59,022 bases of DNA from a virus. Every line of letters begins with the position of its first letter. Position 1 is the stretch's first letter. Under the pieces are notes generated by a model. It ran no database searches. It was not told where the DNA came from and saw nothing but the letters and a program-made list of their open reading frames with translations. This document shows positions 5,790 through 22,521 of this stretch, piece by piece. Position numbers and translations under genes: made by a program. The stretch covers positions 1-59,022 of the IMG/VR virus record IMGVR_UViG_3300021425_000040; one strand, 5' to 3'.

Positions 5790-8700
5790 TAGCTAGTCTC
5801 CTCGAAACTTAAAGAAGTTAAGCTTTGACCAGTAGAAAGACCTATTGATATCAAAACTTGATTACCTGTTGAATTAGAAGCATTTTCTGTACCAAACGTT
5901 AAAGTGTACGCTTGGTTATTAATATAAGATCCTGTAGGTATTATATCAGCACCTGTTAACGCACAACCATCACTACCATTACCTCCGTTACCAGTATTAG
6001 AACCTGGCTGACCTGCGCCATTATATTGACTTGTAGCAGTTAACCAACCATTAGAACCAGAAGAGCTATCAATGCCAGATCCAGGCAGTGCTATGTTGAA
6101 AGAAGAGATAGTTCCTGTGAGTCTTACTTTGAAGTTTGCCATATTAGAACGTCTAAATGCAAGTCTGATAAACTGGGCCCCATTACGTCCAGTAGCTAGA
6201 TCAGGGCCTATAGGTAAATATCCGCTACTTAGATCAGTATTAAAGTGCTTTAATATACCCCACCTAACTATAGCTTCATCCGTGCCCGCAACAGTTTGGG
6301 CACCTGACCAAGCAGAAGTATTAAAATAATCTGTAGAAGACGTGAAAGAAGGAGTAGCACCGCTAGCTCCTGATATTACAATACGTTTAGCATCATCATT
6401 ATAAGTAGCGCCTAAGTTATCACTTACTGCTATGCTCTCTTCATTAAATCCAGATATAGATTGACTATAAACTTGAAGTTTGGTGTCTGAAAGCTCTGAG
6501 TAACTTCCTGTACCATTTACATTTTTCATTCTAAATTTTAAAGTTTCAGAAACTCTTGCAGAACCGTTTACATTTATAGAAATATCTCCCAAAGTGTATT
6601 TGTTAGAACTGTTCACACCTGTACCTTTTAGAGGAATTGAACTAGATAAATAACTAGAGGCACCATCAAGATCACTATAATTTTTATTTTGAGTTGAAAT
6701 AGAGTTACCACTTGTGCTCTCAAAATTTGTAGCAGGAGCTATTGTAAAAGGAGTAGAAGTATCTCTATATGTTTGATCAATCCAATTATACACTTGAGCA
6801 CCACTTAAAAGAACTTGAGCACCGCTATTATAATAAGCAATTCCAGATATATATCTTTTTGTGCCTGCAACGCTTTCTGTTAACGTAGCTGATGTTAAAT
6901 CTATAATAGGAGTATCCGTTAAACTTTCTTTTACGATCTCAACTGTATTAGTAGACCCTTCTGTACTATGTTGAAGAGAGAAAGAATTAACACCATCAGA
7001 CACAGTTGTAGCGCTTTTTTGTATATAAGCTTTAAATACTCTATAAAATCCTTCAGGATAAATTCTGCTACTTCCAGAAACTGAGTTGCCGCTAGCATCA
7101 GAACCATTAGCATCGATATCTTCACTTATAACTAAAGAAGTATAAGTTCCTGTATCACTGGCAGTAGTAAAGCTTTTAGTACCATCCACACTTCCATTTA
7201 CAATAGCACTTAGATCACCTGATACAGCATTATAAGCATAAGAACTTAAAACATCGGTAGTTATAAAACCAACTTGATCTACAGTTCTATTCACACTATC
7301 TCCAGCACTTGCACTAGCTCCTCCAGTATTATCGTCAAAACCAGACGTTAGCAAAGGAGATAGTCCTACATCTTCTGAAGTCATAGTTATACTTTTAGAA
7401 GATAGCCCTGCTGGTGCGCTAGGTGGGTTATCTATTTGAATATAGTTGCTTCTTGTATCTGTATCATCAGTAGATGTCAAAGAGTTATCTCCTGTAGCAA
7501 GTAGTGAAAGATCGTAAGTACCTGTAGAAGTGTATTCATGAATAATATTAGCGCCTGTTGGAGTACCCGCTGCTCCTTCAGAAATAGAAACAGTATTAGA
7601 ATCACCAAAGGACCATTCATAGGTATCAGTGTTTTCAGATTGATTTATAAAAGTAGCGATATTTCTCTTGTTACCGCTATAGTCTGTAAATAAGTATCCT
7701 AGCCTAGTACTAGAAGAATTAAGACCTTGAGATACAGTACTCATAGTTCCTATATACTCAGAGCGGGGGTCAGGGTTTACAGTTATAGTAGTTGCTGAGC
7801 TTGCAAATGGAGAAGTGCTATGGCCATTATATAAAGATAAGGTTACATCAAAAGTTTGCTGTACAGCTCTATTAGAAAGAGCAAAAGTATGAGATATGCT
7901 TTGATTAGTATCCCCACTAGAACCAGAACCTGTATTAACATACTGAGAAGTTCCGTCTCCCCAATCCCACTGATATCTAATAGTGTCAGGATAAGAAGAG
8001 TTATCGCCTGGAGCACTACTAGTAGTATTAGTAAAAGTTACGGGCAAGCCTGAAGTGGCTTCTTCATTGTTACCACTGTTAACACTTGAAGTAAAAGTAG
8101 GTGTATGAGTAGAATATACATATACAGAAGAGTTAGTACTATCGTCTTGACCATTTGAAGAGGAAGCAGCCGTAAGAGTTATAGTATAAGTTTCATCGCC
8201 TGCAGTATTATTATAAGTGTGAGAAATAGCGCCCCCACCTGGAGTGCCCGCACCGCTAGAGCCTAGAGAGCTGTTAGAGGTTCCATCTCCCCAGTTAATT
8301 TCATAAGAATCAGTAAACTGAGAAGTGTTAGTTAAGGAAACAGATGTAGCATCGTCTATAGTGCTGTCAGCAATAGAAAATCCAGCTATAGGGGCAGGAG
8401 TTTGTAGTGATATATAGTTAACTCTAGTAGAAAAGGCTTCAGAGCCTTCACCTGATCCTGAAGTATTTTTAGCTGTTACTGTTATAGTTTGTAACCCTCC
8501 ATCAGGTACTACATAGGTATGAGGTACAGAGGTAGAAGAAGTTGTTGTATTAGCTGTTCCATCTCCCCAGCTTATTTCATAGTTGTTAGCATTGCCTTCA
8601 GCAGTTATGCTAAGTGTAACAGCTAGAGGAGAGTTGCCTGCAGTAATATTAGAAGCAAAAGAAACTTCTTTTACAAAAGTATCGTTTCTTACATTTTCAA

Positions 8701-10558
8701 GAACTTCATTAAGAATGTCTATAGCATCTGTGACTTTTGTATCAGTATCAAAATACTGATAAGCGCCATCCGCCAAAGAAGAGTCCAAACTTGTTCCAAG
8801 TGCAAGAGTATTAGCAGTGGTGTTTACAGAGTTAGCTATTAAATTAGTAACTTCGATAGTTTGAGCTACAAGGTTACCAGTAGATACGCTGTGCGTAGCT
8901 TCAACCGTTACTCCAAACACGTTACTTTGAGTCACACTAGCAGTTATACTATCTGCAGTCATTTCACCTGCTCTAAAGTCTGCAGGGCTGCCTGTGAATA
9001 CTTCTCCGCTATTTGTAGCGTCTAGTAAAAATGAGTAAGAATTAGAAGCAGCGTTCCAACCAAAGAATCCTAGTTTAGATTGATTATCTTCATAATATCT
9101 AAACTCTACACCACGATCTTTACCGTCAGAAGATTCTAAAGCTGTATTTCCGGCAAGAGTAATAATAGGATCTTTTAGAGTAGTAACTGTAGTATCTACA
9201 GAAGTAGTATTTCCTTCTACAATCAAGTTTCCTAGTAGTAGTAGGTTAGTAGCATCAAGAGTTATACTTCCAGCATTAGAAGAAATATTAGACCCACTAA
9301 TTACTATATCGCCTATATTAGCGCGAGGAAAACCTGTTTTAAGATATGTTTCATTAATAGCAGATACTAAGTTAGAAGTGTCAACAGTAACTAAGTCAGC
9401 TTTAGATCCTACATTAGAATCTACTCTAAACTCTAGTGAGTTTACGTTTGCAGTTAGAGAGTCTAAGTTTGCTACTGTGCGTACTTCTAAAGTATTAACA
9501 TTTGCAGTAAGAGTATTTAAATTTGCAGTTACAGAAGCATCTAGTGCTTCTACATTACCAGCTAGGGAGTTTAAGTTTGCAGTTACACGAAAGTCTAGTG
9601 AATTTACATTTGAAGTAGTTAAGTCTATATTAGCTTGAGTACGGCTTTCAAGAGCATCTACATTAGCAGTAATAACATCAAGATTAGCAGTTACACGAAG
9701 ATCTAGAGAAGAAATGTTGCTACTTACTACATCAATATTAGCGCTTACATTGTCTGCAAGTGCTACAACATTTTCATGCAAAGAAGTAACGTTAGCTTGA
9801 AGTTCAGCAATGTCTTCTCCGCCTACATCTGCAATAGCTGCATTAGCATAGGCAGCATAGGCATCTAAATTGGAACTTACTACGCCGATATTAGCTGTAA
9901 GTTGTACTACGTTATCATCAAGATCTTGTAGGTGTTGAGCATTACCACTTGAAAGAGAGTTAATAGCCGCAACAATATTATCTGTTACACTAGTAACTAA
10001 GTTAACAGGATCACCTGTTAAAGCTATAATCTGAGCATTAGAAGCTAAGTCGCTGGCAACAATTTCAACTGTATTAATAGCGTTTGCATCAGCAGTAAGA
10101 CTTACACCAGGAATTCTAACTGTGCCATCAGGATCAACGTTAAAGTTTTGAATATCAATTGTTGAGCCGCTAATAGATGAATTAGCGCCGATAAAAATTG
10201 TACCTTCTGCGACGTGTATCTCTTTAAACTTACGTTCGGGAGTACCTAAACTCGTAGCCTCATCAGAACTAGGAACAATATTAGAACCTACAACAATACT
10301 TGATCCAGGTATAGAAGTGTTGGCACTAATAAAAAGATCACGGGCGTCTCCTGAACGCACCGTGATCTCATTTTGATGTTCACCTATACCGATGTTAAGA
10401 TTACCTACGTTGGCATTCTCTTCACCTTTGGGACCTCGTATCCCTACTTCTACAACTTTTATAGCCCCTGAATTAGGAGCTGTTACAACTACTTGATTTG
10501 TGGTCTCGGAGACAGTGACGGATTGTACTGTTTCACTTACGGTTACTCTGTTGCTCAA
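5789..10558 (-). CDS. Large tail fibre with coiled repeats and PKD domains
   Basis: 1589 aa. Residues ~1-70 contain 'VTVSETVQSVTVSET' and 'GIRGPKGEE', a start seen in marine phage fibres. Residues ~200-390 are repeats of the type 'LDxRVTANLDxxTANV', a heptad-like shaft. Then comes 'LIVEGNTTSVDTTVTTLKDP', and residues ~620-1085 hold four PKD-like Ig folds, recognisable by YEISWGDGT, YEINWGDGT, YQWDWGDGT and YEWSFGDSN, each followed by a HTY/HEY turn. The remaining ~500 residues are serine-rich beta structure. PKD domains mediate protein-protein or carbohydrate contacts in surface proteins. Start and stop overlap both neighbours by 1-4 nt, so it belongs to one structural operon. Confidence 0.85.
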   Translation of the reverse strand: MSNRVTVSETVQSVTVSETTNQVVVTAPNSGAIKVVEVGIRGPKGEENANVGNLNIGIGEHQNEITVRSGDARDLFISANTSIPGSSIVVGSNIVPSSDEATSLGTPERKFKEIHVAEGTIFIGANSSISGSTIDIQNFNVDPDGTVRIPGVSLTADANAINTVEIVASDLASNAQIIALTGDPVNLVTSVTDNIVAAINSLSSGNAQHLQDLDDNVVQLTANIGVVSSNLDAYAAYANAAIADVGGEDIAELQANVTSLHENVVALADNVSANIDVVSSNISSLDLRVTANLDVITANVDALESRTQANIDLTTSNVNSLDFRVTANLNSLAGNVEALDASVTANLNTLTANVNTLEVRTVANLDSLTANVNSLEFRVDSNVGSKADLVTVDTSNLVSAINETYLKTGFPRANIGDIVISGSNISSNAGSITLDATNLLLLGNLIVEGNTTSVDTTVTTLKDPIITLAGNTALESSDGKDRGVEFRYYEDNQSKLGFFGWNAASNSYSFLLDATNSGEVFTGSPADFRAGEMTADSITASVTQSNVFGVTVEATHSVSTGNLVAQTIEVTNLIANSVNTTANTLALGTSLDSSLADGAYQYFDTDTKVTDAIDILNEVLENVRNDTFVKEVSFASNITAGNSPLAVTLSITAEGNANNYEISWGDGTANTTTSSTSVPHTYVVPDGGLQTITVTAKNTSGSGEGSEAFSTRVNYISLQTPAPIAGFSIADSTIDDATSVSLTNTSQFTDSYEINWGDGTSNSSLGSSGAGTPGGGAISHTYNNTAGDETYTITLTAASSSNGQDDSTNSSVYVYSTHTPTFTSSVNSGNNEEATSGLPVTFTNTTSSAPGDNSSYPDTIRYQWDWGDGTSQYVNTGSGSSGDTNQSISHTFALSNRAVQQTFDVTLSLYNGHSTSPFASSATTITVNPDPRSEYIGTMSTVSQGLNSSSTRLGYLFTDYSGNKRNIATFINQSENTDTYEWSFGDSNTVSISEGAAGTPTGANIIHEYTSTGTYDLSLLATGDNSLTSTDDTDTRSNYIQIDNPPSAPAGLSSKSITMTSEDVGLSPLLTSGFDDNTGGASASAGDSVNRTVDQVGFITTDVLSSYAYNAVSGDLSAIVNGSVDGTKSFTTASDTGTYTSLVISEDIDANGSDASGNSVSGSSRIYPEGFYRVFKAYIQKSATTVSDGVNSFSLQHSTEGSTNTVEIVKESLTDTPIIDLTSATLTESVAGTKRYISGIAYYNSGAQVLLSGAQVYNWIDQTYRDTSTPFTIAPATNFESTSGNSISTQNKNYSDLDGASSYLSSSIPLKGTGVNSSNKYTLGDISINVNGSARVSETLKFRMKNVNGTGSYSELSDTKLQVYSQSISGFNEESIAVSDNLGATYNDDAKRIVISGASGATPSFTSSTDYFNTSAWSGAQTVAGTDEAIVRWGILKHFNTDLSSGYLPIGPDLATGRNGAQFIRLAFRRSNMANFKVRLTGTISSFNIALPGSGIDSSSGSNGWLTATSQYNGAGQPGSNTGNGGNGSDGCALTGADIIPTGSYINNQAYTLTFGTENASNSTGNQVLISIGLSTGQSLTSLSFEETS

Positions 10559-13973: not shown

Positions 13974-14170
13974 AGTACAACTCCTTTACAAAATTAATTG
14001 TATATAGCATAAAGTTATCATAGTATTTGTACTATGTCCAACTCTTTTAACGAAAATTCAAAAAATTACTGGGGGAACGCGTGTGAGTGTGCGCAGCGCA
14101 CGCATAGGTTGTAATGTGCCAAAACCGCCCTACCATAGGTTGCAAAAATAATAAAACTACAGTTTTTTTT
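13974..14170. other. Non-coding stretch upstream of the lipase
   Basis: I see no convincing gene here. On the minus strand TTGGAC and ATAACT-like boxes precede the lipase, forming a weak promoter candidate. A 13-bp dyad GTGCGC-A-GCGCAC lies at 14089-14101 in a locally GC-rich, T-poor stretch. The base composition shifts from AT-rich to GC-rich at about 14070 and stays GC-rich through the HNH gene. Confidence 0.4.
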
Positions 14171-14190
14171 AAAAACGGCAGTTTTTGCCG
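14171..14190 (-). terminator. Intrinsic terminator of the HNH gene
   Basis: Read on the minus strand, CGGCA-AAAAC-TGCCG forms a 5-bp stem followed by TTTTT. It starts just beyond the HNH stop. A second dyad CGGCCC-TATAC-GGGCCG at 14189-14205 overlaps the last codons of the gene. Confidence 0.7.
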
Positions 14191-14193
14191 GCC

Positions 14194-14514
14194 CTATACG
14201 GGCCGATATGGTTTTGCGATACCAGCGGCGGCTGCCTTGCAATATTTTGCCCAATATGCGCGACGGCTTTCTATTTCGGCGCGGGCTTCGCTATACGGCG
14301 CATATGCGCGAAAAACTACGTTTGCGGTTCCTTGCACCTTATTGCAAACATCGCACAAGCGCACAAAATTTTCTAGAACCATTGCGCCACCATTGGCTTC
14401 AGAAACTAAGTGACCCGCTTCGCGAGCATCCCAAGTGCCGCAAGCTGCGCAGCAATCAAAGCGCGCGAAAACTTCGTTGCGGATTTTTGCGGGGATTCTT
14501 GATTTTTTAGCCAT
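14194..14514 (-). CDS. HNH endonuclease
   Basis: 106 aa. CAACGTWD supplies the first CxxC, and the motif AGHLVSEANGGAMVLENFV followed by LCDVCN gives the H, N and second CxxC of a treble-clef HNH nuclease. The invariant His is in 'AGHLV' and the Asn in 'LENFV'. The gene is GC-richer than its minus-strand neighbours and sits exactly at the strand-switch boundary, with its own promoter and terminator. That suggests an independently acquired homing-type endonuclease or moron. The ribosome binding site is AGGAG. Confidence 0.8.
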   Translation of the reverse strand: MAKKSRIPAKIRNEVFARFDCCAACGTWDAREAGHLVSEANGGAMVLENFVRLCDVCNKVQGTANVVFRAYAPYSEARAEIESRRAYWAKYCKAAAAGIAKPYRPV

Positions 14515-14539
14515 GTCGTTTTCTCCTATCTATAATAAG

Positions 14540-14568
14540 AATATACATACCGCGGGCGATAAATACAA
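14540..14568 (-). promoter_or_regulatory. Sigma70-type promoter for the HNH gene
   Basis: Minus strand: TTGTAT (14563-14568), 17-nt spacer, TATATT (14540-14545), then AGGAG and the HNH ATG. Four of six and five of six bases match consensus. Confidence 0.6.
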
Positions 14569-14610
14569 GAGAAAAAAGGACTTTTTTTAAAAAAAATTTG
14601 TTTTGCTTTA

Positions 14611-14684
14611 AAATCAATAGGTTAGCAGATTTTTGCAAAAAAAGCTGAATATGGGCTTGAAACCCGCGAAAATATGCTTATATT
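14611..14684 (+). promoter_or_regulatory. Promoter region of the plus-strand island, with cassette left arm
   Basis: AAAATCAATAGGTTAGCAG is the left arm of the stem-loop family that recurs through this island, here without its right arm. Downstream, TTGAAA (14657-14662), 16 nt, TATATT (14679-14684) is a good promoter for the first gene at 14715. Confidence 0.6.
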
Positions 14685-14714
14685 AATATTATGACATTTA
14701 CGAAAGGATTTAAA

Positions 14715-14948
14715 ATGTTTGGATATATTGTTCGCGAAACCGAAAAAGCCGTTGCCTTTGTTCAAGAGGGCAAATTTGCGGGCGTCGAAGTCAAGGCGCT
14801 ATGGGTTCCACGGTCTAAAATCAATTCTATGGTTGAGCGCGATAGCTACTCGCCAAGCATCCAGCTTGCCGGTGAGAAAATTCGCCGCTTTGGAATTCCA
14901 ACGGATATTGAAATTGATCCAGAATTTTTAAAAAAGATTGGGGTGTAA
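14715..14948 (+). CDS. Hypothetical 77-aa early protein
   Basis: The start at 14715 (MFGYIVRETEKAVAF) is chosen over an ATG 24 nt upstream because AAAGGA precedes it at correct spacing and the -10 box lies immediately before the upstream ATG. The protein reads as a small alpha/beta fold ('VKALWVPRSKINSM', 'EKIRRFGIPTDIEIDPEFL'). No family recognised. It is the first gene of a three-gene unit. Confidence 0.65.
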   Translation: MFGYIVRETEKAVAFVQEGKFAGVEVKALWVPRSKINSMVERDSYSPSIQLAGEKIRRFGIPTDIEIDPEFLKKIGV

Positions 14949-14949
14949 A

Positions 14950-15087
14950 ATGAAAATCGCAAAGCGTAAACCCCAAACACCGCAGCCCGTAAAAAGGGCT
15001 GACGGTTCATGGTTTGTTCCATCTCGCCGTTGTTCGTCAACAATCAACAATAAAATTTCTAGCAGCTTCAAAGGAGTTAAAAAATGA
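14950..15087 (+). CDS. Small basic protein, 45 aa
   Basis: MKIAKRKPQTPQPVKRADGS, then WFVPSRRC and a Ser/Lys-rich end. Strongly basic and proline-rich, possibly nucleic-acid or host-protein binding. It starts 1 nt after the previous stop and ends in an ATGA overlap with the next gene, so its translation is likely coupled. Confidence 0.55.
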   Translation: MKIAKRKPQTPQPVKRADGSWFVPSRRCSSTINNKISSSFKGVKK

Positions 15088-15209
15088 GCGATCTGGATAT
15101 TATAAAGTACCACCTGTCTACAAAAGAATTCTGGTTCGGTATAGTTGTAACTCTACTAGGTACGCTTGCAATATGGGTAGCAGTGCAACTTGCAGCTGAG
15201 TTCTTGTAA
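15084..15209 (+). CDS. Small membrane protein, 41 aa
   Basis: MSDLDIIKYHLSTKEFWFG is followed by one TM helix (IVVTLLGTLAIWVAVQLAA). AAAGGAG lies at good spacing and the ATG overlaps the previous stop. It probably sits in the host inner membrane; function unknown. Confidence 0.6.
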   Translation: MSDLDIIKYHLSTKEFWFGIVVTLLGTLAIWVAVQLAAEFL

Positions 15210-15218
15210 AAAGCGTGC

Positions 15219-15316
15219 AAAATCAATAGCTTAGCGGCAGGGCCGCCCCGCCCGCTAAGTAGTTGATTTTAAACAGTTTTTTTAGGGTTGCAAAGCAATT
15301 AAAACTATGCGATAAA
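15219..15316 (+). promoter_or_regulatory. Stem-loop/promoter cassette 1
   Basis: AAAATCAA...CTTAGCGG pairs with CCGCTAAG...TTGATTTT (15219-15270) around a GC-rich centre and is followed by an ACAGTTTTTTT tract. It can therefore act as terminator for the upstream unit. Then TTGCAA (15288-15293), 17 nt, GATAAA (15311-15316) drives the gene at 15347. Confidence 0.65.
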
Positions 15317-15346
15317 CTTATATAAGATAACAAAGGAGAAAATCTT

Positions 15347-15832
15347 ATGACTACATTTTACACCGCTGGAAAAGTTTGGCACAATAAAAAATTTCAAAAT
15401 CTGCGTGATGATCTAGGCTATGCTGTAAAAGCTCGCTGGATTGACTTAGAAAATGATAGTGATTTTGTGCAAAATCAAAAAGATCAGCTCTGGAATTTGT
15501 GCTATGAAGATGTTCGGGATAGTGATTTCTTGCTGCTATATTGTGAAGATTTTAACGAAGAACAGCGCGGAGCGCTAGTTGAAATTGGAATGGCTTATGG
15601 CTGCGGAAAACCAGTATATGCTATAGGTAAGTGTGCAAGCATTGCACCTAATGAAATATCTGATGTTGCCTTCACGCATTTCAAAAACTGGACATGGCTA
15701 GAAACGACTGACTTAGTAGAAGGTGCAGACCAAGCTATTGCTATGCATGAAGGAAAGCAAAAGGCCCAGCGCCTTGTGAGTATGTTTAAAGATTTTAGAA
15801 CTGTTGGAACAGTACAATCGGAGGTTGCATAA
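15347..15832 (+). CDS. Nucleoside 2-deoxyribosyltransferase-like protein
   Basis: 161 aa. The fold signature is visible: 'FYTAGKVW' (first strand), 'YEDVRDSDFLLLYCED' (acidic residues after the second helix) and GALVEIGMAYGCGKPVYAIG, in which Glu79 corresponds to the catalytic nucleophile of the NDT/DUF4406-like superfamily and GKPV is the conserved end. Such enzymes cleave or exchange the base of deoxynucleosides or deoxynucleotides and serve salvage or nucleotide-pool change. AAAGGAG precedes the ATG. It is followed without a gap by the DUF6899-like gene. Confidence 0.65.
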   Translation: MTTFYTAGKVWHNKKFQNLRDDLGYAVKARWIDLENDSDFVQNQKDQLWNLCYEDVRDSDFLLLYCEDFNEEQRGALVEIGMAYGCGKPVYAIGKCASIAPNEISDVAFTHFKNWTWLETTDLVEGADQAIAMHEGKQKAQRLVSMFKDFRTVGTVQSEVA

Positions 15833-16123
15833 ATGCCTTATATTCCCGTAGAAGATCGTTCACGCGTTGATGAAGCTGTAATGGATCAAGGGTGCCAATG
15901 GGTACCCAACAACGCCGGAGAGCTAAACTGGTTAGTATCTAGTTTTATAAATAATTTTTTAGAAGTGCATGGTGTACGCTATGCGTATCTAAATGAAATG
16001 ATGGGCGCTCTAGAGTGTTGCAAGCTAGAGCTGTATCGCAAGGTAGGTGCGCCTTATGAAGAAATAAAAGAGGCTGAAAATGGTAAAGCGTACTCAGTCG
16101 AATTGCAAGGAGCTGATTACTGA
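15833..16123 (+). CDS. DUF6899-like phage protein
   Basis: 96 aa. It begins MPYIPVEDR and contains 'NNAGELNWLVSSF' and 'LNEMMGALECCKLELYRKVG' followed by 'APYEEIKEAENGKAY'. That order (start, GELN, GALECxKLE-YR, APYE, NG-Y) is the pattern I remember for a phage-specific family of unknown function. The ATG directly follows the previous stop. Confidence 0.7.
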   Translation: MPYIPVEDRSRVDEAVMDQGCQWVPNNAGELNWLVSSFINNFLEVHGVRYAYLNEMMGALECCKLELYRKVGAPYEEIKEAENGKAYSVELQGADY

Positions 16124-16147
16124 GAATAATCCAACGCCTAATAATCC

Positions 16148-16249
16148 TTTAATATCAAAGGGTTAGAGGGCGCGGCGCCCCCGCGCGCTAAGTGCTTGAT
16201 TTTAAACACTTTTTTAGTGCTTGACAATAATATAATAAAAGAGTATGGT
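16148..16249 (+). promoter_or_regulatory. Stem-loop/promoter cassette 2
   Basis: AATATCAAAGGGTTAG opposes CTAAGTGCTTGATTTTAAAC around a GC core and ends in ACTTTTTT. TTGACA (16221-16226), 17 nt, TATGGT (16244-16249) follows. It separates the NDT unit from the first HTH paralogue. Confidence 0.7.
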
Positions 16250-16277
16250 TTCTTATAGTCAATTAAAAGGAGTTCTC

Positions 16278-16604
16278 ATGGCTACTAAAACTGTAAATTA
16301 TACTACCGCACAAGTTGATCAAATTATCAGCATGTACAAGCAATCAGGTAATGAAGCTTTGCCAGAGATTGCTGCAGCTGTTGGTAAATCAGTTCGCTCT
16401 GTACGTTCTAAGCTAGTGCGGGAAGGCGTATACGTGGCTACCCCTAAGCCAAAACGGTCTTCAATTGATAAAGGACCTACTAAAAAAGAGCTTCTTAATG
16501 AGCTCGAGAAGGTGTGTGGTTTTGATGTCACACCTCTGTCTGGTTCTACAAAAGAGGGATTGCTTTCGCTGATCTCTTTTGCTAAAAAAATGGGAGAAGC
16601 TTAG
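16278..16604 (+). CDS. HTH regulator-like protein, paralogue 1
   Basis: 108 aa from the ATG at 16278, chosen because AAAAGGAG precedes it and it matches the starts of its two paralogues. The N-terminal half is an HTH-like domain: a helix 'QVDQIISMYKQSG', 'EIAAAVGKSVRSVRSKLV' as helix-turn-recognition helix, then REGVYVATPK. The C-terminal half (TKKELLNELE...SGSTKEGLLSLI) resembles a small SAP/HeH-like helical motif. It probably binds DNA. Which promoters it controls is unknown, but the paralogues sit behind regulatory cassettes or structured leaders in this island. Confidence 0.7.
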   Translation: MATKTVNYTTAQVDQIISMYKQSGNEALPEIAAAVGKSVRSVRSKLVREGVYVATPKPKRSSIDKGPTKKELLNELEKVCGFDVTPLSGSTKEGLLSLISFAKKMGEA

Positions 16605-16634
16605 GCTTCTCCACAACCCTTTTAGGAGATATTT

Positions 16635-16802
16635 ATGTCTGTAAAAACTGCTATATGTTACGATGAGTGCGGCACGGAAGTTTCTATCCAAGTCGAGAGC
16701 TATCACCAGATACCTCAAGAATGGCGGTTCTGCTATTGGCAAGAATTCAGTGATCGGGAGCTTGCTGAGTGGCGGCTGGATCAGGAGCAAGACTGGCCCT
16801 AG
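16635..16802 (+). CDS. Small acidic Trp-rich protein, 55 aa
   Basis: MSVKTAICYDECGTEVSIQV then five tryptophans and many Glu/Asp residues. Strong TTAGGAG at 7-nt spacing, 30 nt behind the HTH gene in the same unit. Acidity and size suggest a host-protein inhibitor or DNA-mimic type early protein, but this is speculation. Confidence 0.6.
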   Translation: MSVKTAICYDECGTEVSIQVESYHQIPQEWRFCYWQEFSDRELAEWRLDQEQDWP

Positions 16803-16809
16803 CCTCGCA

Positions 16810-16998
16810 AAAAACCCTTTAATATCAAAGGGTTAGCCGCACCGCCAAAAAAGTGTGTAATATCAAGGGGTTAGCAAGGGGGTCGCCCCGCTCGCTAAGT
16901 TATTGATTTTAAAGGGTTTTTTAATTCAAATAAAATGCTAAGTGCTTGTTTTTAAACGATTCTTTTCTGTTGACTTCAGCTGATTTATTCTTTATAAG
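16810..16998 (+). promoter_or_regulatory. Stem-loop/promoter cassette 3 (duplicated arms)
   Basis: Two left arms occur (AATATCAAAGGGTTAGCC at ~16821 and AATATCAAGGGGTTAGC at ~16860). A right arm CTCGCTAAGTTATTGATTTT (~16891) follows with a T tract, and then a second right-arm block GCTAAGTGCTTGTTTTTAAA (~16937). Next come TTGACT (16970-16975), 17 nt, TATAAG (16993-16998). It looks like two cassettes fused by recombination. Confidence 0.7.
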
Positions 16999-17021
16999 TT
17001 ATATATAAGGAGAATTTACTA

Positions 17022-17477
17022 ATGATTAAAAATATTTCTATCTTTGATTTAGACGGAACCTGCGTTGATAGCTCGCATAGGCAAGCTACTCTTGCAGATG
17101 GTACGCTAAACTTGGCGGCTTGGTTTGCCAACGCTACACCTGAAAAGATAGCTCAAGACAAGCTGCTTCCTTTAGCCAAGGAAATAAGCAACCGTAAAGA
17201 TAAAGGCGATTATGTGATAATCTGCACTGCTAGGAATATGTCTAGCGCAGATTATGAGTTTTTGAAAAAGAATAACATGGTTGCTCACAAGATTATTTCT
17301 CGCCCTGTGGGAAATATGGAAGCAGACGGATCACTTAAGGCGAAACAGCTTTCATCCTTTTTAAGCCTCCGCCAATTTAAAAGAGCTTCAAAAGTGATGT
17401 TTGATGACGCGCAAAGTGTCCGTTCTGCTATCCGAAAAATTGGTATTGCGGTACTAGATCCCGCAAAAATCAACTAG
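17022..17477 (+). CDS. HAD-superfamily phosphatase
   Basis: 151 aa. Motif I is IFDLDGT (Asp9 nucleophile, Asp11). Motif II is ICTAR with Thr69. Motif III Lys is near 108 (KAKQLSS). Motif IV is MFDDA (Asp128/129). This is the layout of small HAD phosphatases related to the 3'-phosphatase half of polynucleotide kinase and to phage 5'-nucleotidases. A role in nucleotide or nucleic-acid end metabolism is likely. The ribosome binding site is AAGGAG. Confidence 0.75.
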   Translation: MIKNISIFDLDGTCVDSSHRQATLADGTLNLAAWFANATPEKIAQDKLLPLAKEISNRKDKGDYVIICTARNMSSADYEFLKKNNMVAHKIISRPVGNMEADGSLKAKQLSSFLSLRQFKRASKVMFDDAQSVRSAIRKIGIAVLDPAKIN

Positions 17478-17485
17478 AGGTTGTT

Positions 17486-17767
17486 ATGGAATATACTCAC
17501 GAATTAATGTTAGAATGTCACGAAAAACGAATGGGAGGAAATATGCGACACTTAATGATAATACGGCCAGATGGTGGCATCTGTGATTGCTATGGAGAGA
17601 TCGAAGAAAATAGCAATTTTGAAGTCGTATGCTACGACGAAGAAAATGATGGAATTTGGGCAACGGGAAACCATGATACCAATGAACCATTTAAAGACTG
17701 GGAAGAAGCTGTTAAATGGCTATGCGAAAATCTTGACTCACGGATTGAACAGCTAACCGCTGTTTAA
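17486..17767 (+). CDS. Hypothetical protein, 93 or 74 aa
   Basis: Two starts are possible. One is ATG at 17486 after AGAGG. The other is ATG at 17543 (MRHLMIIRPDGG), which has the stronger GGGAGGAAAT right before it. The shorter form begins directly with a beta strand. The rest is acidic with 'EIEENSNFEVVCYDEENDG' and 'FKDWEEAVKWLCENL'. No family recognised. It is 8 nt behind the HAD gene and co-transcribed. Confidence 0.6.
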   Translation: MEYTHELMLECHEKRMGGNMRHLMIIRPDGGICDCYGEIEENSNFEVVCYDEENDGIWATGNHDTNEPFKDWEEAVKWLCENLDSRIEQLTAV

Positions 17768-17769
17768 TC

Positions 17770-17914
17770 CTTTAAAAACAAGCACTTACGGGCCGGGGCG
17801 CCCCGGCGGCTAAGTCATTGATTTTAAACGATTTTTTAATTGAAAAAAAAATGCTAAGTCCTTGTTTTTAAACGATTCTTTTTTCTTGCATTCTGCTTAT
17901 TTTAAAGCTATAAA
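17770..17914 (+). promoter_or_regulatory. Stem-loop/promoter cassette 4
   Basis: The perfect palindrome CCGGGGCGCCCCGG forms the centre, flanked by AAGCACTTACGG and GGCTAAGTCATTGATTTT, then AAACGATTTTTT. A second block GCTAAGTCCTTGTTTTTAAA follows. TTGCAT (17886-17891), 17 nt, TATAAA (17909-17914) is the promoter of HTH paralogue 2. Confidence 0.7.
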
Positions 17915-17950
17915 TATTATATTAACCCTCAAACAAAAAGGAGGCCAAAT

Positions 17951-18274
17951 ATGGCTACAACTAAAACTGCAAATTACACCGCCGCTCAAGTCGAGCAAAT
18001 CGTTTCTATGTATGCTGATCTAGGTAACGAAGGTCTGCAAGACATCTCTGACGCCGTGGGCAAATCTGTCCGGTCAGTTCGTTCGAAACTCGTGCGTGAG
18101 GGTGTTTATGTCGCCACCCCTAAAGCCGCTGCACCTAAGCGGGATCAAGGCCCAACCAAAAAAGAGCTGTTAAATCAGCTTGAAGAAATGGTTGGTTTTG
18201 ATGTTACTCCACTTTCGGGGTCAACCAAAGAAGGTTTGCAATCTCTGATTGCATTCGCCTCTAAGGTGGCATAA
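17951..18274 (+). CDS. HTH regulator-like protein, paralogue 2
   Basis: 107 aa. It shares KSVRSVRSKLVREGVYVATPK-type core and the TKKELLNQLE...SGSTKEGLQSLI tail with paralogues 1 and 3. Between copies the protein core is nearly identical while the third codon positions differ, so the copies are old and under purifying selection. AAAGGAGG precedes the ATG. It has its own promoter and terminator, so it is monocistronic. Confidence 0.7.
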   Translation: MATTKTANYTAAQVEQIVSMYADLGNEGLQDISDAVGKSVRSVRSKLVREGVYVATPKAAAPKRDQGPTKKELLNQLEEMVGFDVTPLSGSTKEGLQSLIAFASKVA

Positions 18275-18280
18275 ACCAGA

Positions 18281-18310
18281 GGGGGCAAGGTTGCAGCCTT
18301 GCCCCTTTTT
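18281..18310 (+). terminator. Intrinsic terminator after HTH paralogue 2
   Basis: GGGGCAAGG, a 5-6 nt loop, CCTTGCCCC and TTTTT. The 9-bp GC-rich stem begins 7 nt after the stop codon. Confidence 0.9.
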
Positions 18311-18327
18311 ACTTGACACTGAAAAAA

Positions 18328-18488
18328 GTGTTTAATATCAAACACTTACGGGCCGGGGCCCCCCGCGAGCTAAGTCATTGAAAACAAACAGTTTTTTAGT
18401 TAGCAGAAAAAGGCTAAGTGCTTGATTTTAAACGATTCTTTTTATTTGACAGTCTAATGTTTTTGCTTTACACCTATAAGGGTAAAGC
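18328..18488 (+). promoter_or_regulatory. Stem-loop/promoter cassette 5 with operator-like dyad
   Basis: AATATCAAACACTTACGG and GAGCTAAGTCATTGAAAAC flank a GC core with a T tract, followed by GCTAAGTGCTTGATTTTAAA. TTGACA lies at 18446-18451. No -10 at 17 nt is good; TATAAG (18475-18480) is too far for a standard promoter. GCTTTAC (18465-18471) and GTAAAGC (18482-18488) form a dyad around this -10-like box, a possible operator in front of the exonuclease gene. Confidence 0.6.
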
Positions 18489-18506
18489 ATACAGGAGAAT
18501 TTACAA

Positions 18507-19211
18507 ATGCCTTTCAAGCCTACTCTTTTCGTTGTAACCGATATTGAAACCACCATGCGCAAGCGTATTGCGTTTGATATTGCTTGGCGCATTGTTGACC
18601 GAAAAGGTCGGGAATATGGTTCTGGCTCTTATGTTATTCGTGAAGCCTTCAAACTTGATCTGCCTTTTTTCGCTGAAAAAATGGGTCATTATTTTGATGA
18701 TGCTTACAGCCACAAAATTGTGCCTGCATCTATTGATGACGTTCGCGCAGAGTACAACGCGCAAATTAATGCTCTTGCTGCTGCGGGTCATAAAGTCATT
18801 CTATGCGCTTACAATGCGCGTTTTGATTTTACGCATCTGCCTCGCACTTTGCAAGTTTTGCACAATGACACCTCTGCGCGTTGGTTAGATAACGCTTTTC
18901 CTCTGCTCGATATTTGGGATTTTTGGGGCCAAAGCGTTCCTCTTAATTATCGCGCCAATCCTTCAAAATCTGGCAAATACTTTTCAACGTCTGCGGAAAG
19001 CGCATACCGTTGGGAATTCATGCAAGAAGATTTTGAAGAACGTCATATTGCGTGGCATGATTGCTTGATTGAAAGTGATATTTTGCTGAAAGCATTGCAT
19101 CGCAAAAAGTCTATGCCTATAGTTTCCAAGCCTTCCGAGTTTTCTGGATCAGTTTGGAGAGATATCAATCTGAGACTAGGCGTTGACGGTTCTCAGGCTC
19201 TTGCTGCATAA
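18507..19211 (+). CDS. DnaQ-like 3'-5' exonuclease (DEDDh)
   Basis: 234 aa. Exo I is VTDIETT (Asp12, Glu14). Exo II is CAYNARFDFTHL (Asp107). Exo III is HIAWHD (His180, Asp185, an HxxxxD spacing). All four acidic residues and the His are present, so the enzyme should be active on DNA or RNA 3' ends. It could recycle host nucleic acid or act on RNA. It is larger than RNase T-type domains because of a ~30-residue insertion around 'NPSKSGKYFSTSAESAYRW'. The ribosome binding site is AGGAG. Confidence 0.8.
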   Translation: MPFKPTLFVVTDIETTMRKRIAFDIAWRIVDRKGREYGSGSYVIREAFKLDLPFFAEKMGHYFDDAYSHKIVPASIDDVRAEYNAQINALAAAGHKVILCAYNARFDFTHLPRTLQVLHNDTSARWLDNAFPLLDIWDFWGQSVPLNYRANPSKSGKYFSTSAESAYRWEFMQEDFEERHIAWHDCLIESDILLKALHRKKSMPIVSKPSEFSGSVWRDINLRLGVDGSQALAA

Positions 19212-19262
19212 TTAAACTGGGGTTTGCAAAGCGCAAGCCCCCCACAACCCGAGGTTGAAAAA

Positions 19263-19373
19263 ATGGCTAAAATTAAACTTGCGCTTCCTTATATACTAAA
19301 GGCTTATATCGTTTACTCTGTTATATCCGAAACGGTAGTTTTAGGCGGGCTTATATACTTAATTTTCTTTTAA
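19263..19373 (+). CDS. Small membrane protein, 36 aa
   Basis: MAKIKLALPYILKAYIVYSV then more hydrophobic residues to LIYLIFF, probably one or two TM segments. GAGG precedes the ATG. The stop codon overlaps the first bases of cassette 6. Function unknown. Confidence 0.5.
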   Translation: MAKIKLALPYILKAYIVYSVISETVVLGGLIYLIFF

Positions 19374-19469
19374 TATCAAGGGGTTAGGCGGCGGGGCCCA
19401 CAACCTGCTAAACTATTGAAAACAAACACTTTTTTTACTATTGCAGAAACATTTTAAAACTGATACTAA
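19370..19469 (+). promoter_or_regulatory. Stem-loop/promoter cassette 6
   Basis: TTAATATCAAGGGGTTAGG opposes CCTGCTAAACTATTGAAAAC around a GC core, followed by ACTTTTTTT. TTGCAG (19441-19446), 17 nt, TACTAA (19464-19469) is a weaker promoter for the next two genes. Confidence 0.6.
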
Positions 19470-19486
19470 TAATTAAAGGAGATAAT

Positions 19487-19696
19487 ATGGCTAGAAGAGT
19501 TGAATGGAAGGCTATCGGTAAATGTAAAGTTTGTGGCATAAATTTATATGCTGAGACTGACAATAAACCTCATAAGATTGCTATGCCTTGCAATCTAGGA
19601 GGTTGCCCTTATGAAACACCAGAACAGCAGCAAAGCGCTGATGAATTTTGGAGATCACTACCACCAGCAGGAAAAGGAATAACTTATTATGAATAA
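19487..19696 (+). CDS. Small zinc-finger-like protein, 69 aa
   Basis: MARRVEWKAIGKCKVCGINL gives one CxxC knuckle, and MPCNLGGCPYET supplies a second Cys pair. A four-Cys zinc site is plausible. AAAGGAG precedes the ATG. It overlaps the next gene by 8 nt. Confidence 0.6.
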   Translation: MARRVEWKAIGKCKVCGINLYAETDNKPHKIAMPCNLGGCPYETPEQQQSADEFWRSLPPAGKGITYYE

Positions 19697-19898
19697 ACAC
19701 TCAAATACATATAAAGAATGGTTTGCAGAAGTCGATCGTATCTTAGAACGTTCTATAGGCTTAGGGCAGGACTGTCTAGCAGACTGGCTAAGTCGAGACG
19801 CTTATAATGATGGTCTTAGCGCAGAAGAAGGTGCAGCTCTTTGCCTAGAAGCTCAAGACTTAATGAATGACGATGAGATATCAGAATTATTAAGTTAA
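19689..19898 (+). CDS. Hypothetical acidic protein, 69 aa
   Basis: Helical and acidic ('EWFAEVDRILERSIG', 'DLMNDDEISELLS'). The conserved-looking 'GLGQDCLADWLSRDAYNDGL' has no match I can name. Translationally coupled to the zinc-finger-like gene. Confidence 0.6.
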   Translation: MNKHSNTYKEWFAEVDRILERSIGLGQDCLADWLSRDAYNDGLSAEEGAALCLEAQDLMNDDEISELLS

Positions 19899-19970
19899 AT
19901 CAGGGGCTTAGGCCCCGAGGCGCCCTGGCTCCTAACTTATTGATTTCATTGATCTTTTTCTCTCTTGACA
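19899..19970 (+). promoter_or_regulatory. Degenerate cassette 7
   Basis: AGGGGCTTAGGCCCC, then GGCTCCTAACTTATTGATTT, CTTTTTC and TTGACA (19965-19970). The arms are degenerate versions of the cassette family. No -10 lies at 16-18 nt from the TTGACA; the nearest TATAGT is at 20007-20012. Confidence 0.45.
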
Positions 19971-20241
19971 CAACTTAAAGTTGAATGAGGCGCCCTAGGC
20001 GCCGCCTATAGTAGTAGTTCAACAACCCGGATGCAAGTAGAAAAACAATTTAAGCTGCACCCAAACGTAAGTCTACTTTAGTTTTAGCACCAGGCCAAGT
20101 AGTAGTTCAACTATCATATTTCGTGGACCATAGTAGGCATTCGAAGTAATTATTTAATAGTCTAGCGCCACTATTATAGTGGAAAAACTATAGCGTTGTC
20201 AAGCGCAAATTAGCTGTGTCCGCTCGTCAAAGTCAAGTCAC
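19971..20241. other. Non-coding stretch with direct repeats and hairpins
   Basis: I find no ORF with a ribosome binding site. Visible structure: the dyad GGCGCC-CTA-GGCGCC (19990-20004), AGTAGTAGTTCAAC repeated at 20010-20023 and 20098-20111, and AAGTAGA...TCTACTT bracketing ~30 nt (about 20035-20078). The layout suggests a structured RNA or a protein-binding region rather than a gene. It is not a recognisable tRNA. Confidence 0.45.
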
Positions 20242-20309
20242 ATAAAAAAACAGAGAGCAGCATAGAAGCAGAAGATTCATCTTTCTTCTTGCTTACTTGC
20301 TGTTTTTAT
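20242..20309 (+). terminator. Long imperfect hairpin with U-tract
   Basis: AAAAACAG pairs with CTGTTTTT, and further in AAGCAGAAGA pairs with TCTTCTTGCTT with one bulge. The loop is about 8 nt and the 3' side runs into TTTTTATC. It can act as terminator or attenuator before HTH paralogue 3. Confidence 0.5.
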
Positions 20310-20388
20310 CGTATATTGATTATGTTGATGAGGGAAATGAGCGCCTCGAACCAGCTCAGAAGCCAATTATATAGAAAGAGGTTCAAAT

Positions 20389-20706
20389 ATGGCTAACACT
20401 ACAGTAAACTACACAGACGCACAAGTAGAAATGATTGTTGAAATGTACAACGAGCTAGGCAATGACGGTCTTGAAGAAATCGCATCTGCTGTTAGCAAGT
20501 CAGTACGGTCAGTTCGGTCAAAGCTGGTGCGCGAAGGTGTTTATGTTGCTACACCTAAAGCCAAGGCAGCTCCAAAAGATATGGGTCCTTCGAAGAAGGA
20601 ACTGTTGAATAACTTGGAGCAAATTGTAGGCTTTGATGTCACCGGCTTCACCGGTGCTACTAAGCCCGCGCTGGCTACGCTTATTGAAAAGCTGCAAGCT
20701 GCCTAA
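20389..20706 (+). CDS. HTH regulator-like protein, paralogue 3
   Basis: 105 aa with the same two-part layout as paralogues 1 and 2. The recognition-helix core SKSVRSVRSKLVREGVYVAT is conserved. The C-terminal half is shorter and diverged (TGFTGATKPALATLIEKLQ). GAAAGAGG precedes the ATG. It lies behind the long structured leader at 19971-20309 instead of a standard cassette, and it is followed by a strong terminator. Confidence 0.7.
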   Translation: MANTTVNYTDAQVEMIVEMYNELGNDGLEEIASAVSKSVRSVRSKLVREGVYVATPKAKAAPKDMGPSKKELLNNLEQIVGFDVTGFTGATKPALATLIEKLQAA

Positions 20707-20729
20707 GCGTGGTGCAACATGAACACACG

Positions 20730-20755
20730 GGGGGCCTTCGGGCCCCCTTATCTTT
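20730..20755 (+). terminator. UUCG-loop intrinsic terminator
   Basis: GGGGGCC-TTCG-GGCCCCC at 20730-20747, followed by TTATCTTTT. A 7-bp GC stem with a stabilising UUCG tetraloop. Confidence 0.9.
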
Positions 20756-20779
20756 TAATGGCTAAAAAAAGGAATAATC

Positions 20780-21196
20780 ATGCAAGGTTTGATCGAATCT
20801 GATAATTATATTAAATGTGGACACTGCAACTATGCTCACACTTATGGTGAGCGTCTAGATACAGGTTATGACGTTGTATGTCCTAACTGTCAATCTGATG
20901 CTTCTACTGAAGATTTAGATGATGAACAAAAGTACTATTGGTGGAGTGTTGGTATATATTCAACAGGCGAGAACTACGGAGGCCCCGAAGAGGGCGGCTG
21001 GTGGTACACAGCAGGTAACCTAGAGCATCATGATAAAGTTCGTAGCTTTTATTCGCTAAAACAAGCTCAAGAATATGCTGTAGAACTACGTAATTGGTTA
21101 ACAGAACATACTAATGGACTAGATTATGTAATAAAAGGGTTTACAGAACAGTTTCCTGATGATGGATTTCCTAAAGTAAGACCACGTTATTGCTAA
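20780..21196 (+). CDS. Zinc-ribbon protein, 138 aa
   Basis: The N-terminus has IKCGHCNYAHTYG and VVCPNCQSD, a CxxC...CxxC zinc ribbon (residues ~13-40). The rest is a mixed alpha/beta domain with many aromatics ('YYWWSVGIYSTGENYGG', 'FYSLKQAQEYAVELRNWL'). AAAAGGA precedes the ATG. It is the last plus-strand gene of the island and is closed by a strong terminator. Function unknown; it may bind nucleic acid or the host transcription machinery. Confidence 0.65.
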   Translation: MQGLIESDNYIKCGHCNYAHTYGERLDTGYDVVCPNCQSDASTEDLDDEQKYYWWSVGIYSTGENYGGPEEGGWWYTAGNLEHHDKVRSFYSLKQAQEYAVELRNWLTEHTNGLDYVIKGFTEQFPDDGFPKVRPRYC

Positions 21197-21203
21197 AAAC
21201 GAG

Positions 21204-21236
21204 AAAAAGGAGCCCTTTTGAGGCTCCTTTTTTTAT
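21204..21236 (+). terminator. Intrinsic terminator ending the plus-strand island
   Basis: AAAAAGGAGCC, a short loop, GGCTCCTTTTTTT. The A-rich 5' side also makes it usable from the minus strand, where the convergent operon arrives. Confidence 0.9.
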
Positions 21237-21435
21237 TTAATCTTAAAAACCAGTAAAAATCGGTAAAAAAGCTTGCGCTTCACGAAAAATACCAGAAAAA
21301 TTGAAATAATACTTGCTTGGCAAAATAATTGAATAATTCTAGTTAAAAATCAACGTCTTTCTCTGGTAGTATTAAAATTATAATAACTAGAAAAAAGACA
21401 GAGCTTTCCCATTTAATAAGTTATACGGAGAAAAA

Positions 21436-21540
21436 ATGAAAGCTAACCCCCTAACGAAATCTTCGTTTCGAGCGTACTGCCTTACCCCGCGTACTTTCCC
21501 CTCAGTCTCCGCTAATGAGATCGTTGTCTCTAGCCTATGA
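21436..21540 (+). CDS. Possible 34-aa ORF in a structured region
   Basis: MKANPLTKSSFRAYCLTPRT and a further 14 residues. ACGGAG precedes the ATG at good spacing. However, the same DNA contains AACGAA-ATC-TTCGTT and GAGA...TCTC dyads, so it could equally be a non-coding RNA. The 195 nt before it (21241-21435) are AT-rich with nothing recognisable. Confidence 0.35.
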   Translation: MKANPLTKSSFRAYCLTPRTFPSVSANEIVVSSL

Positions 21541-21556
21541 GCGCTTAAGTTGCCTA

Positions 21557-21592
21557 AGAATCTTTAGAATTAACCTTAGAATCTTTAGAATT
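21557..21592. repeat. Two direct repeats, 21-nt period
   Basis: AGAATCTTTAGAATT occurs at 21557-21571 and 21578-21592, with a degenerate third copy (ATTCTTTTGAATT) just downstream. A period of two helical turns fits tandem protein-binding sites (iterons). Confidence 0.5.
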
Positions 21593-21610
21593 GCGCTTTA
21601 TTCTTTTGAA

Positions 21611-21676
21611 TTAGAGAGGTTGTAGAATAATAATTGCAAGAAGTAAAACTATATAAATAATCCATTCTGTATTCAT
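21611..21676 (-). CDS. Possible 21-aa membrane microprotein
   Basis: MNTEWIIYIVLLLAIIILQP and one further residue: almost entirely one TM helix. A fair promoter (21694-21721) lies just upstream on the same strand. No clear ribosome binding site, so tentative. Confidence 0.35.
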   Translation of the reverse strand: MNTEWIIYIVLLLAIIILQPL

Positions 21677-21693
21677 TATTAACTCATGTAACT

Positions 21694-21721
21694 ATATTAG
21701 CATAATTTGCATTAAAGTCAA
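21694..21721 (-). promoter_or_regulatory. Sigma70-type promoter candidate
   Basis: Minus strand: TTGACT (21716-21721), 16 nt, TAATAT (21694-21699). It points away from the large inverted repeat towards the 21-aa ORF and the direct repeats. Confidence 0.45.
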
Positions 21722-21724
21722 GTA

Positions 21725-21837
21725 GTCATTGAGCGATAAGTTTGATATGTTTAATTTTCAGCATTGAGAATATGAAAATTAAGCAGTTGGCACTTGTTAC
21801 ATATAGGTAAGCGCTGTACATTTTATCGCTCAATGAC
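21725..21837. repeat. Nested inverted repeat (15-bp outer, 10-bp inner)
   Basis: GTCATTGAGCGATAA (21725-21739) and TTATCGCTCAATGAC (21823-21837) are perfect inverted copies. Inside them TTAATTTTCA (21751-21760) and TGAAAATTAA (21773-21782) form a second perfect stem. CATTGAG appears again in the inner loop. No ORF occupies the element. Structured RNA, recombination site or origin element are all possible. Confidence 0.6.
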
Positions 21838-21850
21838 AGGTTAGACTTAG

Positions 21851-21970
21851 TTAATCTACGTGCTCATATGCTAGCGTTAGCCAATGCTTTGTTACATCTT
21901 GAACTAAATAAAGAGCACAGCAACAGGCAATAATAGCTATAGCAGTAGTATAGTTGTTAGGCAGATTCAT
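21851..21970 (-). CDS. Small membrane protein, 39 aa
   Basis: MNLPNNYTTAIAIIACCCAL then YLVQDVTKHW and a polar end. One TM helix containing three consecutive cysteines. Its ATG overlaps the end of the 79-aa gene by 14 nt and is preceded by AAGGAG, so it is very likely translated. It is the last gene of the right-hand minus-strand operon. Confidence 0.6.
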   Translation of the reverse strand: MNLPNNYTTAIAIIACCCALYLVQDVTKHWLTLAYEHVD

Positions 21971-22196
21971 TAAAAACTCCTTCTAGTGATTGACTTATCA
22001 TATAATCAATAGCATCTAGTCTACCTTGTGCGGCAGCCATAGCATCTAGCTGATATTGAATGCTTTCTGCAATGCCTGAATGCTCTCCAATACCAGTACT
22101 AGAATTTAAATAGATGTTTACATTAAGTGCTGCAACATCTAATTCTGATTGAGCATGGTTTCTAAGTGTGTTAAGTATCTGTGTGTTCAATATCAT
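21957..22196 (-). CDS. Hypothetical helical protein, 79 aa
   Basis: Helical sequence ('LRNHAQSELDVAALNVNIYL', 'LDAMAAAQGRLDAIDYM'). It overlaps the GrpE-like gene by 26 nt and the 39-aa gene by 14 nt. No family recognised. Confidence 0.6.
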   Translation of the reverse strand: MILNTQILNTLRNHAQSELDVAALNVNIYLNSSTGIGEHSGIAESIQYQLDAMAAAQGRLDAIDYMISQSLEGVFNESA

Positions 22197-22521
22197 TCTC
22201 CTTTGGTGTAAAAATGTCTACAATGCTACGTCTAATAACTTGATCGCCAATGCAATATCCTCGCGTATGCGTTTTGCAAACTGCGTCACGATCACAGTCG
22301 CTTTTAGGATATACATTGTGAATTTCATGACGATCAGGATCAAACCACAATCCACGATCATCATATGAGTTTAGCCCCCTACTTTGCAGTGCTGATGCTA
22401 TGGCCTCTACAGTAGCACGATAAGTTGCATTATCATAATATTCTAATAGGGCTATAAGTTCATCTAGTGCGGGTAACAGCTCCTGGATCAAATCTGCTGT
22501 ATCTGATGTTAAGTTTTTCAT
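22171..22521 (-). CDS. GrpE-like nucleotide-exchange co-chaperone
   Basis: 116 aa. LIQELLPALDELIALLEYYD (residues 11-30) matches the end of the GrpE long helix (ELLPVLDNLERAL type). The rest follows the GrpE head: RATVEAIASALQSRGLNSYD, RGLWFDPDRHE (typical form GEPFDPNLHE) and TRGYCIGDQVIRRSIVDIF (typical form KGYxLxDRVLRPxxVxV). Only the N-terminal coiled coil is missing. GrpE releases ADP from DnaK, so this protein may steer the host Hsp70 during phage assembly or replication. AGGAG precedes the ATG. It overlaps the upstream ORF by 62 nt. Confidence 0.75.
   Translation of the reverse strand: MKNLTSDTADLIQELLPALDELIALLEYYDNATYRATVEAIASALQSRGLNSYDDRGLWFDPDRHEIHNVYPKSDCDRDAVCKTHTRGYCIGDQVIRRSIVDIFTPKENDIEHTDT

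Follow-up and report, generated by a model that had tools for sequence, protein, structure and literature searches.

Convergent IHF-type sites in register with putative early promoters: a candidate promoter module repeated in an environmental virus

What is the element that recurs between the transcription units on the plus strand of the IMG/VR virus record IMGVR_UViG_3300021425_000040? The window analysed is the whole record, 59,022 bases long, and each copy of the element consists of a left arm, a GC-rich centre and a right arm, followed by a promoter. The initial annotation, made from the letters alone, described a stem-loop cassette with conserved arms. The reading favoured here, to which we give a probability of roughly 0.7 from sequence comparisons, is that integration host factor (IHF) of the host bends the DNA at the elements and so activates each early promoter.

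The repetition itself is far above chance. Seven full elements start at 15217, 16149, 16857, 17772, 18332, 19370 and 19894; the right-arm pattern (at most 3 mismatches allowed) is found 10 times where 0.05 are expected, and the left-arm pattern 12 times where 0.41 are expected. The seven positions first proposed do lie at the borders of transcription units, except that 16821 corresponds to an additional lone left arm, the full element there beginning at 16857. Another lone left arm, placed near 14611, is located at 14608. Three elements also have a second right arm 43–44 bp downstream (at 16939, 17855 and 18415), which is absent from the earlier description.

Both arms look like IHF-type sites. 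According to PMC7581858, such a site is the 13-bp sequence WATCAANNNNTTR with an AT-rich region on its 5' side. This consensus is part of the left arms and also of the right arm, whose opposite strand reads GTTTAAAATCAANNACTTAGC. There are 13 exact copies of it between 14500 and 20000, against 0.51 ± 0.70 in shuffled sequences, and the rest of the window (53.5 kb) has only 6. When R is allowed at position 6, the consensus finds exactly 3 sites in phage lambda attP, matching H1, H2 and H'. The right arm at 15256 shares the 14-mer AATCAACTACTTAG with H1. H' has an A6 tract 8 nt 5' of TATCAA, and most window arms are A-rich at the same place, with the A-tract in the 5' half, about 9–14 bp from the core, that is expected of an IHF site. 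Since the arms read on the other strand carry an A-tract where H' has A6, the T-tract of the initial annotation would be, at least in part, the A-tract of an IHF-type site. Across 208 non-redundant viral contexts, AT enrichment extends from -10 to -17 relative to the W of the consensus, the place of A6 in H', with a GC-tolerant stretch on the core side at -6 to -8. The columns without variation in a gapless alignment of 20 divergent elements belong to the IHF core (TCAA/TTA) of each arm. No PF00216 protein (DNABII, i.e., HU/IHF) is found in this record or in 10 other motif-bearing or related records, several of them fragmentary, and a host protein would therefore be the natural reader of the site. 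In the literature, the sole paper containing one of the motif's letter strings concerns an unrelated subject.

The geometry of the elements is strict as well. In the window and its relatives the starts of the two arms are 38 bp apart in most pairs and 37–39 in nearly all, with a centre of 20. Among 24 non-redundant elements, 19 have 25 or 26 bp between the -35 and the centre of the promoter-proximal site, and 2 more have 46, a distance longer by two helical turns; some of the remaining elements have a lower-scoring -35-like hexamer also at 25–26. Where a tandem right arm is present, it is the one in register with the -35. A site phased upstream of the promoter, as expected of an IHF-activated sigma70 promoter, is thus found at an offset of 25/26 in the relatives.

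In the window, the lone arm at 14608–14625 (plus strand) has the IHF-type core AATCAATAGGTTA, an exact consensus copy, at 14612–14624, and its centre lies 39 bp upstream of the -35 of a promoter at 14657–14684. Element 1 (15217–15272) has its cores at 15221–15233 (+) and 15256–15268 (-), the latter with the H1 sequence, and its promoter at 15288–15316 (TTGCAA-17-GATAAA, with an extended -10) has a -35 that starts 26 bp from the core centre. This promoter and those of elements 2 to 6 are on the plus strand. In element 2 (16149–16205) the cores lie at 16153–16165 (+) and 16189–16201 (-), with a promoter at 16221–16249 (TTGACA-17-TATGGT, offset 26). The additional lone left arm (16819–16836, +) has a core at 16823–16835 and an A6 tract. 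It is followed by element 3 (16857–16912; cores 16861–16873, +, and 16896–16908, -), whose tandem right arm (16938–16955, -; core 16939–16951, 1 mismatch) stands at offset 25 from the promoter at 16970–16998 (TTGACT-17-TATAAG). Element 4 (17772–17827) has cores at 17776–17788 (+, 1 mismatch) and 17811–17823 (-), a tandem right arm at 17854–17871 (-; core 17855–17867, 1 mismatch) and, as read from the sequence, a promoter at 17886–17914 (TTGCAT-17-TATAAA, offset 25). In element 5 (18332–18387) the right core (18371–18383, -) is degenerate; the left core lies at 18336–18348 (+), the tandem arm at 18414–18431 (-) has an exact core at 18415–18427, and the promoter is at 18446–18474 (TTGACA-17-TACACC, offset 25). 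Element 6 (19370–19425) combines a left core at 19374–19386 (+) and a degenerate right core at 19409–19421 (-) with a promoter read from the sequence at 19441–19469 (TTGCAG-17-TACTAA, offset 26). The degenerate element 7 (19894–19949; cores 19898–19910, +, 1 mismatch, and 19933–19945, -) precedes a plus-strand TTGACA at 19965–19970, offset 26. Each element is followed, as described, by a T-tract and by a promoter whose spacer measures 17 nt, apart from the weak -10 after element 7.

Does this arrangement belong to one phage only? The initial annotation held that the sequence is its own family. A 19-base right-arm pattern was scanned over the viral collection and over 257 Gb of bacterial and archaeal genomes. 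It occurs in at least 120 viral stretches, mostly in unrelated surroundings, and the reversed pattern, used as a control, in no viral stretch; together with the anatomy of an IHF site, this speaks against a separate family, and an element private to this phage is rejected by the IMG/VR pattern scans. The bacterial and archaeal genomes yield 34 stretches, about 20 of which are one putida-group Pseudomonas site near a tRNA. Gapped scans of IMG/VR from the site to a sigma70 promoter allowed distances of 15–45 bp in the forward and 11–41 bp in the reverse orientation, and the contexts were counted after relatives had been removed and similar contexts merged by pairwise identity. At least 53 independent contexts are forward, mainly at 25–28 and 34–39, with none at 29–32 among the matches listed; at least 55 are reverse, mainly at 11–16, 23–26 and 33–35. 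The helical periodicity of these distances, again among the matches listed, was reached by none of 20,000 simulations in either orientation, and the reversed control of the gapped pattern gave 1 match. The forward gapped pattern has no match in 369 gammaproteobacterial genomes, in a search that does recover the window's own copy. In 11 viral contigs, moreover, a sigma54 promoter (TGGCAC-N5-TTGC) lies downstream of the site; promoters of this class are commonly IHF-assisted according to PMC7962754.

Because the same site-to-promoter layout recurs in dozens of unrelated viruses, it suggests that many phages use host IHF to switch on genes. There is about an even chance that a broad, virus-enriched class exists in which a strong IHF site stands at fixed helical registers (25–26 and 35–37 bp) from the sigma70 -35 in many unrelated phages, and that this lineage has elaborated it into a two-site cassette of fixed geometry, which drives early units and serves as a joint for reshuffling. 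Convergent pairs elsewhere in viruses have centre lengths of 12–13 in 33 of 53 cases and 20–22 in 8, with none at 15–18 or 23–31, in a raw distribution with related families unmerged. Three loci of other viruses (L437, L458 and L461, one of them on a 112-kb contig) have convergent IHF-type pairs around a GC-rich centre of 12–13 nt, then a T-run, and resemble a shorter version of the window's cassette.

The elements could be operators of a phage transcription factor, e.g., of the three paralogous helix-turn-helix proteins encoded beside them (at 16245, 17951 and 20389), each of which lies downstream of an element and recurs in relatives. However, a helix-turn-helix paralogue is present in only 18 of 352 motif-bearing viral loci, and 330 of the 352, many of them fragments, have no relative of any tested island gene. 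The motif also coincides with the lambda H1 site and precedes sigma54 promoters, and we regard a phage operator as very improbable.

How would IHF act at the elements? On the reading favoured here, each element would be a DNA-level module with a GC-rich spacer, about 20 bp long, between two convergent IHF-type sites. The promoter-proximal site has its centre 25–26 bp before the -35 of a host sigma70 promoter, from which the next early unit would be transcribed. IHF in the host cell would occupy the sites and bend the DNA sharply, and the bend would bring upstream DNA round to RNA polymerase or to the alpha C-terminal domains of this enzyme, presumably increasing early transcription rather than silencing it. 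The GC-rich hairpin with its T-run may partly terminate the preceding unit. As a secondary effect, the repeated arms would offer homology for reshuffling gene units.

Several points weigh against this account. The presence of IHF in the host is assumed; for the structural genes, the best match belongs to a phage whose recorded hosts are Gammaproteobacteria. Another bending protein of the same specificity, or a phage factor, may read the sites, and the account offers no explanation for the orientation of the sites or the function of the second one. Finally, predicted hairpins are better than dinucleotide shuffles in 6 of the 7 window elements (z -2.2 to -6.5), and they may have an RNA role, i.e., termination, alongside a DNA-level one. 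Inverted sites around a GC-rich spacer must fold in this way, which accounts for the excess over shuffles, yet a terminator role is compatible with it.

Could the element then be a composite of an intrinsic terminator and a promoter, as in the PeSL (promoter early stem-loop) cassettes of T4-type phages, with arms and centre forming an RNA hairpin, a U-run behind it and the promoter restarting the next unit? Besides the hairpins, the T-runs that come after the right arm and the position of the elements at unit borders agree with this, as do the left halves, which track the upstream unit in the relative L176 (0.82 against a background identity of 0.69). The initial annotation went further and held that the centres keep only base pairing. 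Left and right halves of one element, however, pair no better than halves taken from different elements: across 20 divergent elements 68.5 % of cells pair, against 68.6 % when partners are dealt anew. The covariation score of the same elements is 0.124 against 0.132 in shuffles, i.e., there is no covariation; the folding energy of the centres does not depend on whether both halves come from one element (p = 0.42); and covariation was also looked for in the outer flanks and NNNN segments, where none was found. The annotation had itself made its conserved stem-loop depend on compensatory changes; these are lacking, three covariation tests being negative, and a conserved RNA structure is therefore rejected. 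An Rfam search of 14000–22500 gave one sub-threshold match only, outside the elements. What is kept instead of pairing is the arm sequence, the arm spacing of 38 ± 1 bp and the distance of 25–26 bp to the -35. In the relatives L174 (70 % identity) and L177, the run after the right arm is flipped to an A-run or lost, yet arms, 38-bp spacing and promoter offset are retained. Nor does an RNA hairpin explain why, in unrelated viruses, the site is helically phased with the -35, and the composite terminator appears unlikely.

Are the elements also joints between movable units? The units are ordered A B C D E F in the window and A X E D C B F in L176, on the same strand and with an element before each. 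In a comparison of junctions with five pairs per class, the 60 bases upstream of the element are 0.64 alike when the upstream unit is shared and 0.48 otherwise, and the left arm behaves likewise (0.82 against 0.69). On the promoter side, likeness depends weakly on the downstream unit (0.60 against 0.53). These values are suggestive of unit junctions that fall inside the elements. Since element-bounded units are permuted in relatives, a PeSL-like role of the elements in shuffling is plausible. The arms might even be integrase or transposase sites, or mainly recombination hot spots, a possibility to which the altered unit order with its junctions at elements and the exact arm motifs near tRNA genes in bacterial genomes lend some weight. 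However, family searches of island proteins revealed no recombinase among those searched, the tRNA-adjacent copies equally fit IHF sites of attachment regions, and the main property conserved across viruses is promoter phasing, which makes a primary recombination or mobility function improbable.

About 20 species of putida-group Pseudomonas keep an exact arm motif in the interval from a tRNA gene to the promoter after it. In the locus L019 and its relatives (L032, L039, L060 and others) a few bases separate an exact arm motif from the dif-like ATTTAACATAATACGTATTAT, possibly an IHF site beside a Xer-type site.

The island contains further features. The three small helix-turn-helix paralogues (phrog_1725, 63–72 % identical; 16245–16604, 17951–18274 and 20389–20706, +) occupy separate units, and their order is shuffled in relatives. 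Two island genes (17022–17477 and 18507–19211) encode a PNKP-type HAD phosphatase and what looks by eye like a DEDDh-type exonuclease (DIET, AYNARFD, HDCLIESD). Positions 19960–20390 form a leader, non-coding and about 420 nt long, part of which is conserved in relatives; it has AGTAGTAGTTCAAC at both 20010 and 20098 and a 12/12 match to a sigma70 promoter on the minus strand (20202–20173). Minus-strand genes elsewhere encode two further proteins, one of 752 aa with seven FG-GAP repeats (53080–55338) and one of 1589 aa with a PKD domain (5789–10558). The island has no DNA match among named phages, and an N-padded motif query against them gave one match, in a phage from Oceanospirillum. Matches to T4-type phages are remote and confined to baseplate and tail-fibre.

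IHF activation of phage promoters is already known from single cases such as Mu. A literature search on IHF sites at phage early promoters returned no paper that matched all terms, with poor coverage of subscription journals. If the phased architecture is general, environmental phages would commonly rely on IHF of the host for their early transcription, the site alone would suffice to find early promoters in uncultured viruses, and hosts that lack or alter IHF should resist such phages. The strict registers would also be a natural data set on the bend placement needed for promoter activation.

How does the module compare with known systems? PeSL cassettes lie between units in T4-type phages, as described in PMC4503421, and the likeness proposed at the outset stands insofar as both are repeated cassettes of promoter and stem-loop at unit borders, tied to modular shuffling with junctions at the elements, the timing in the window being presumably early. 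It does not extend to compensatory pairing, which the window lacks, and the conserved arms are IHF-type sites. RIP/RIB elements of E. coli are palindromic intergenic repeats with an IHF site between paired REP hairpins. They too combine intergenic palindromes with IHF sites, but inside the REP pair, whereas in the window IHF-type sites lie outside a variable GC-rich spacer and are tied to promoters; with no central IHF site flanked by REP, the element does not belong to the RIP/RIB (BIME) family. At sigma54 promoters with an upstream site, IHF bends the upstream DNA, and the same arm is found there in the 11 viral contigs mentioned above, although the window's promoters are of the sigma70 type and no enhancer-binding activator was found, no search having been aimed at one. 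Further parallels are Mu Pe and lambda pL, where, as in the window, a host IHF site lies upstream of a phage sigma70 promoter. At lambda pL, stimulation by IHF depends on helical phase. In Mu, an exact consensus site (947–959) lies about 40 bp before a TTTACA -35, and deletion of the IHF site lowers Pe transcription (PMC3820752). Both have a single site at one promoter, whereas the window has a two-site module of fixed 38-bp geometry in 7 copies within one island and, unlike these single cases, the viral scan reveals a preferred register of 25–26/35–37 bp across many viruses.

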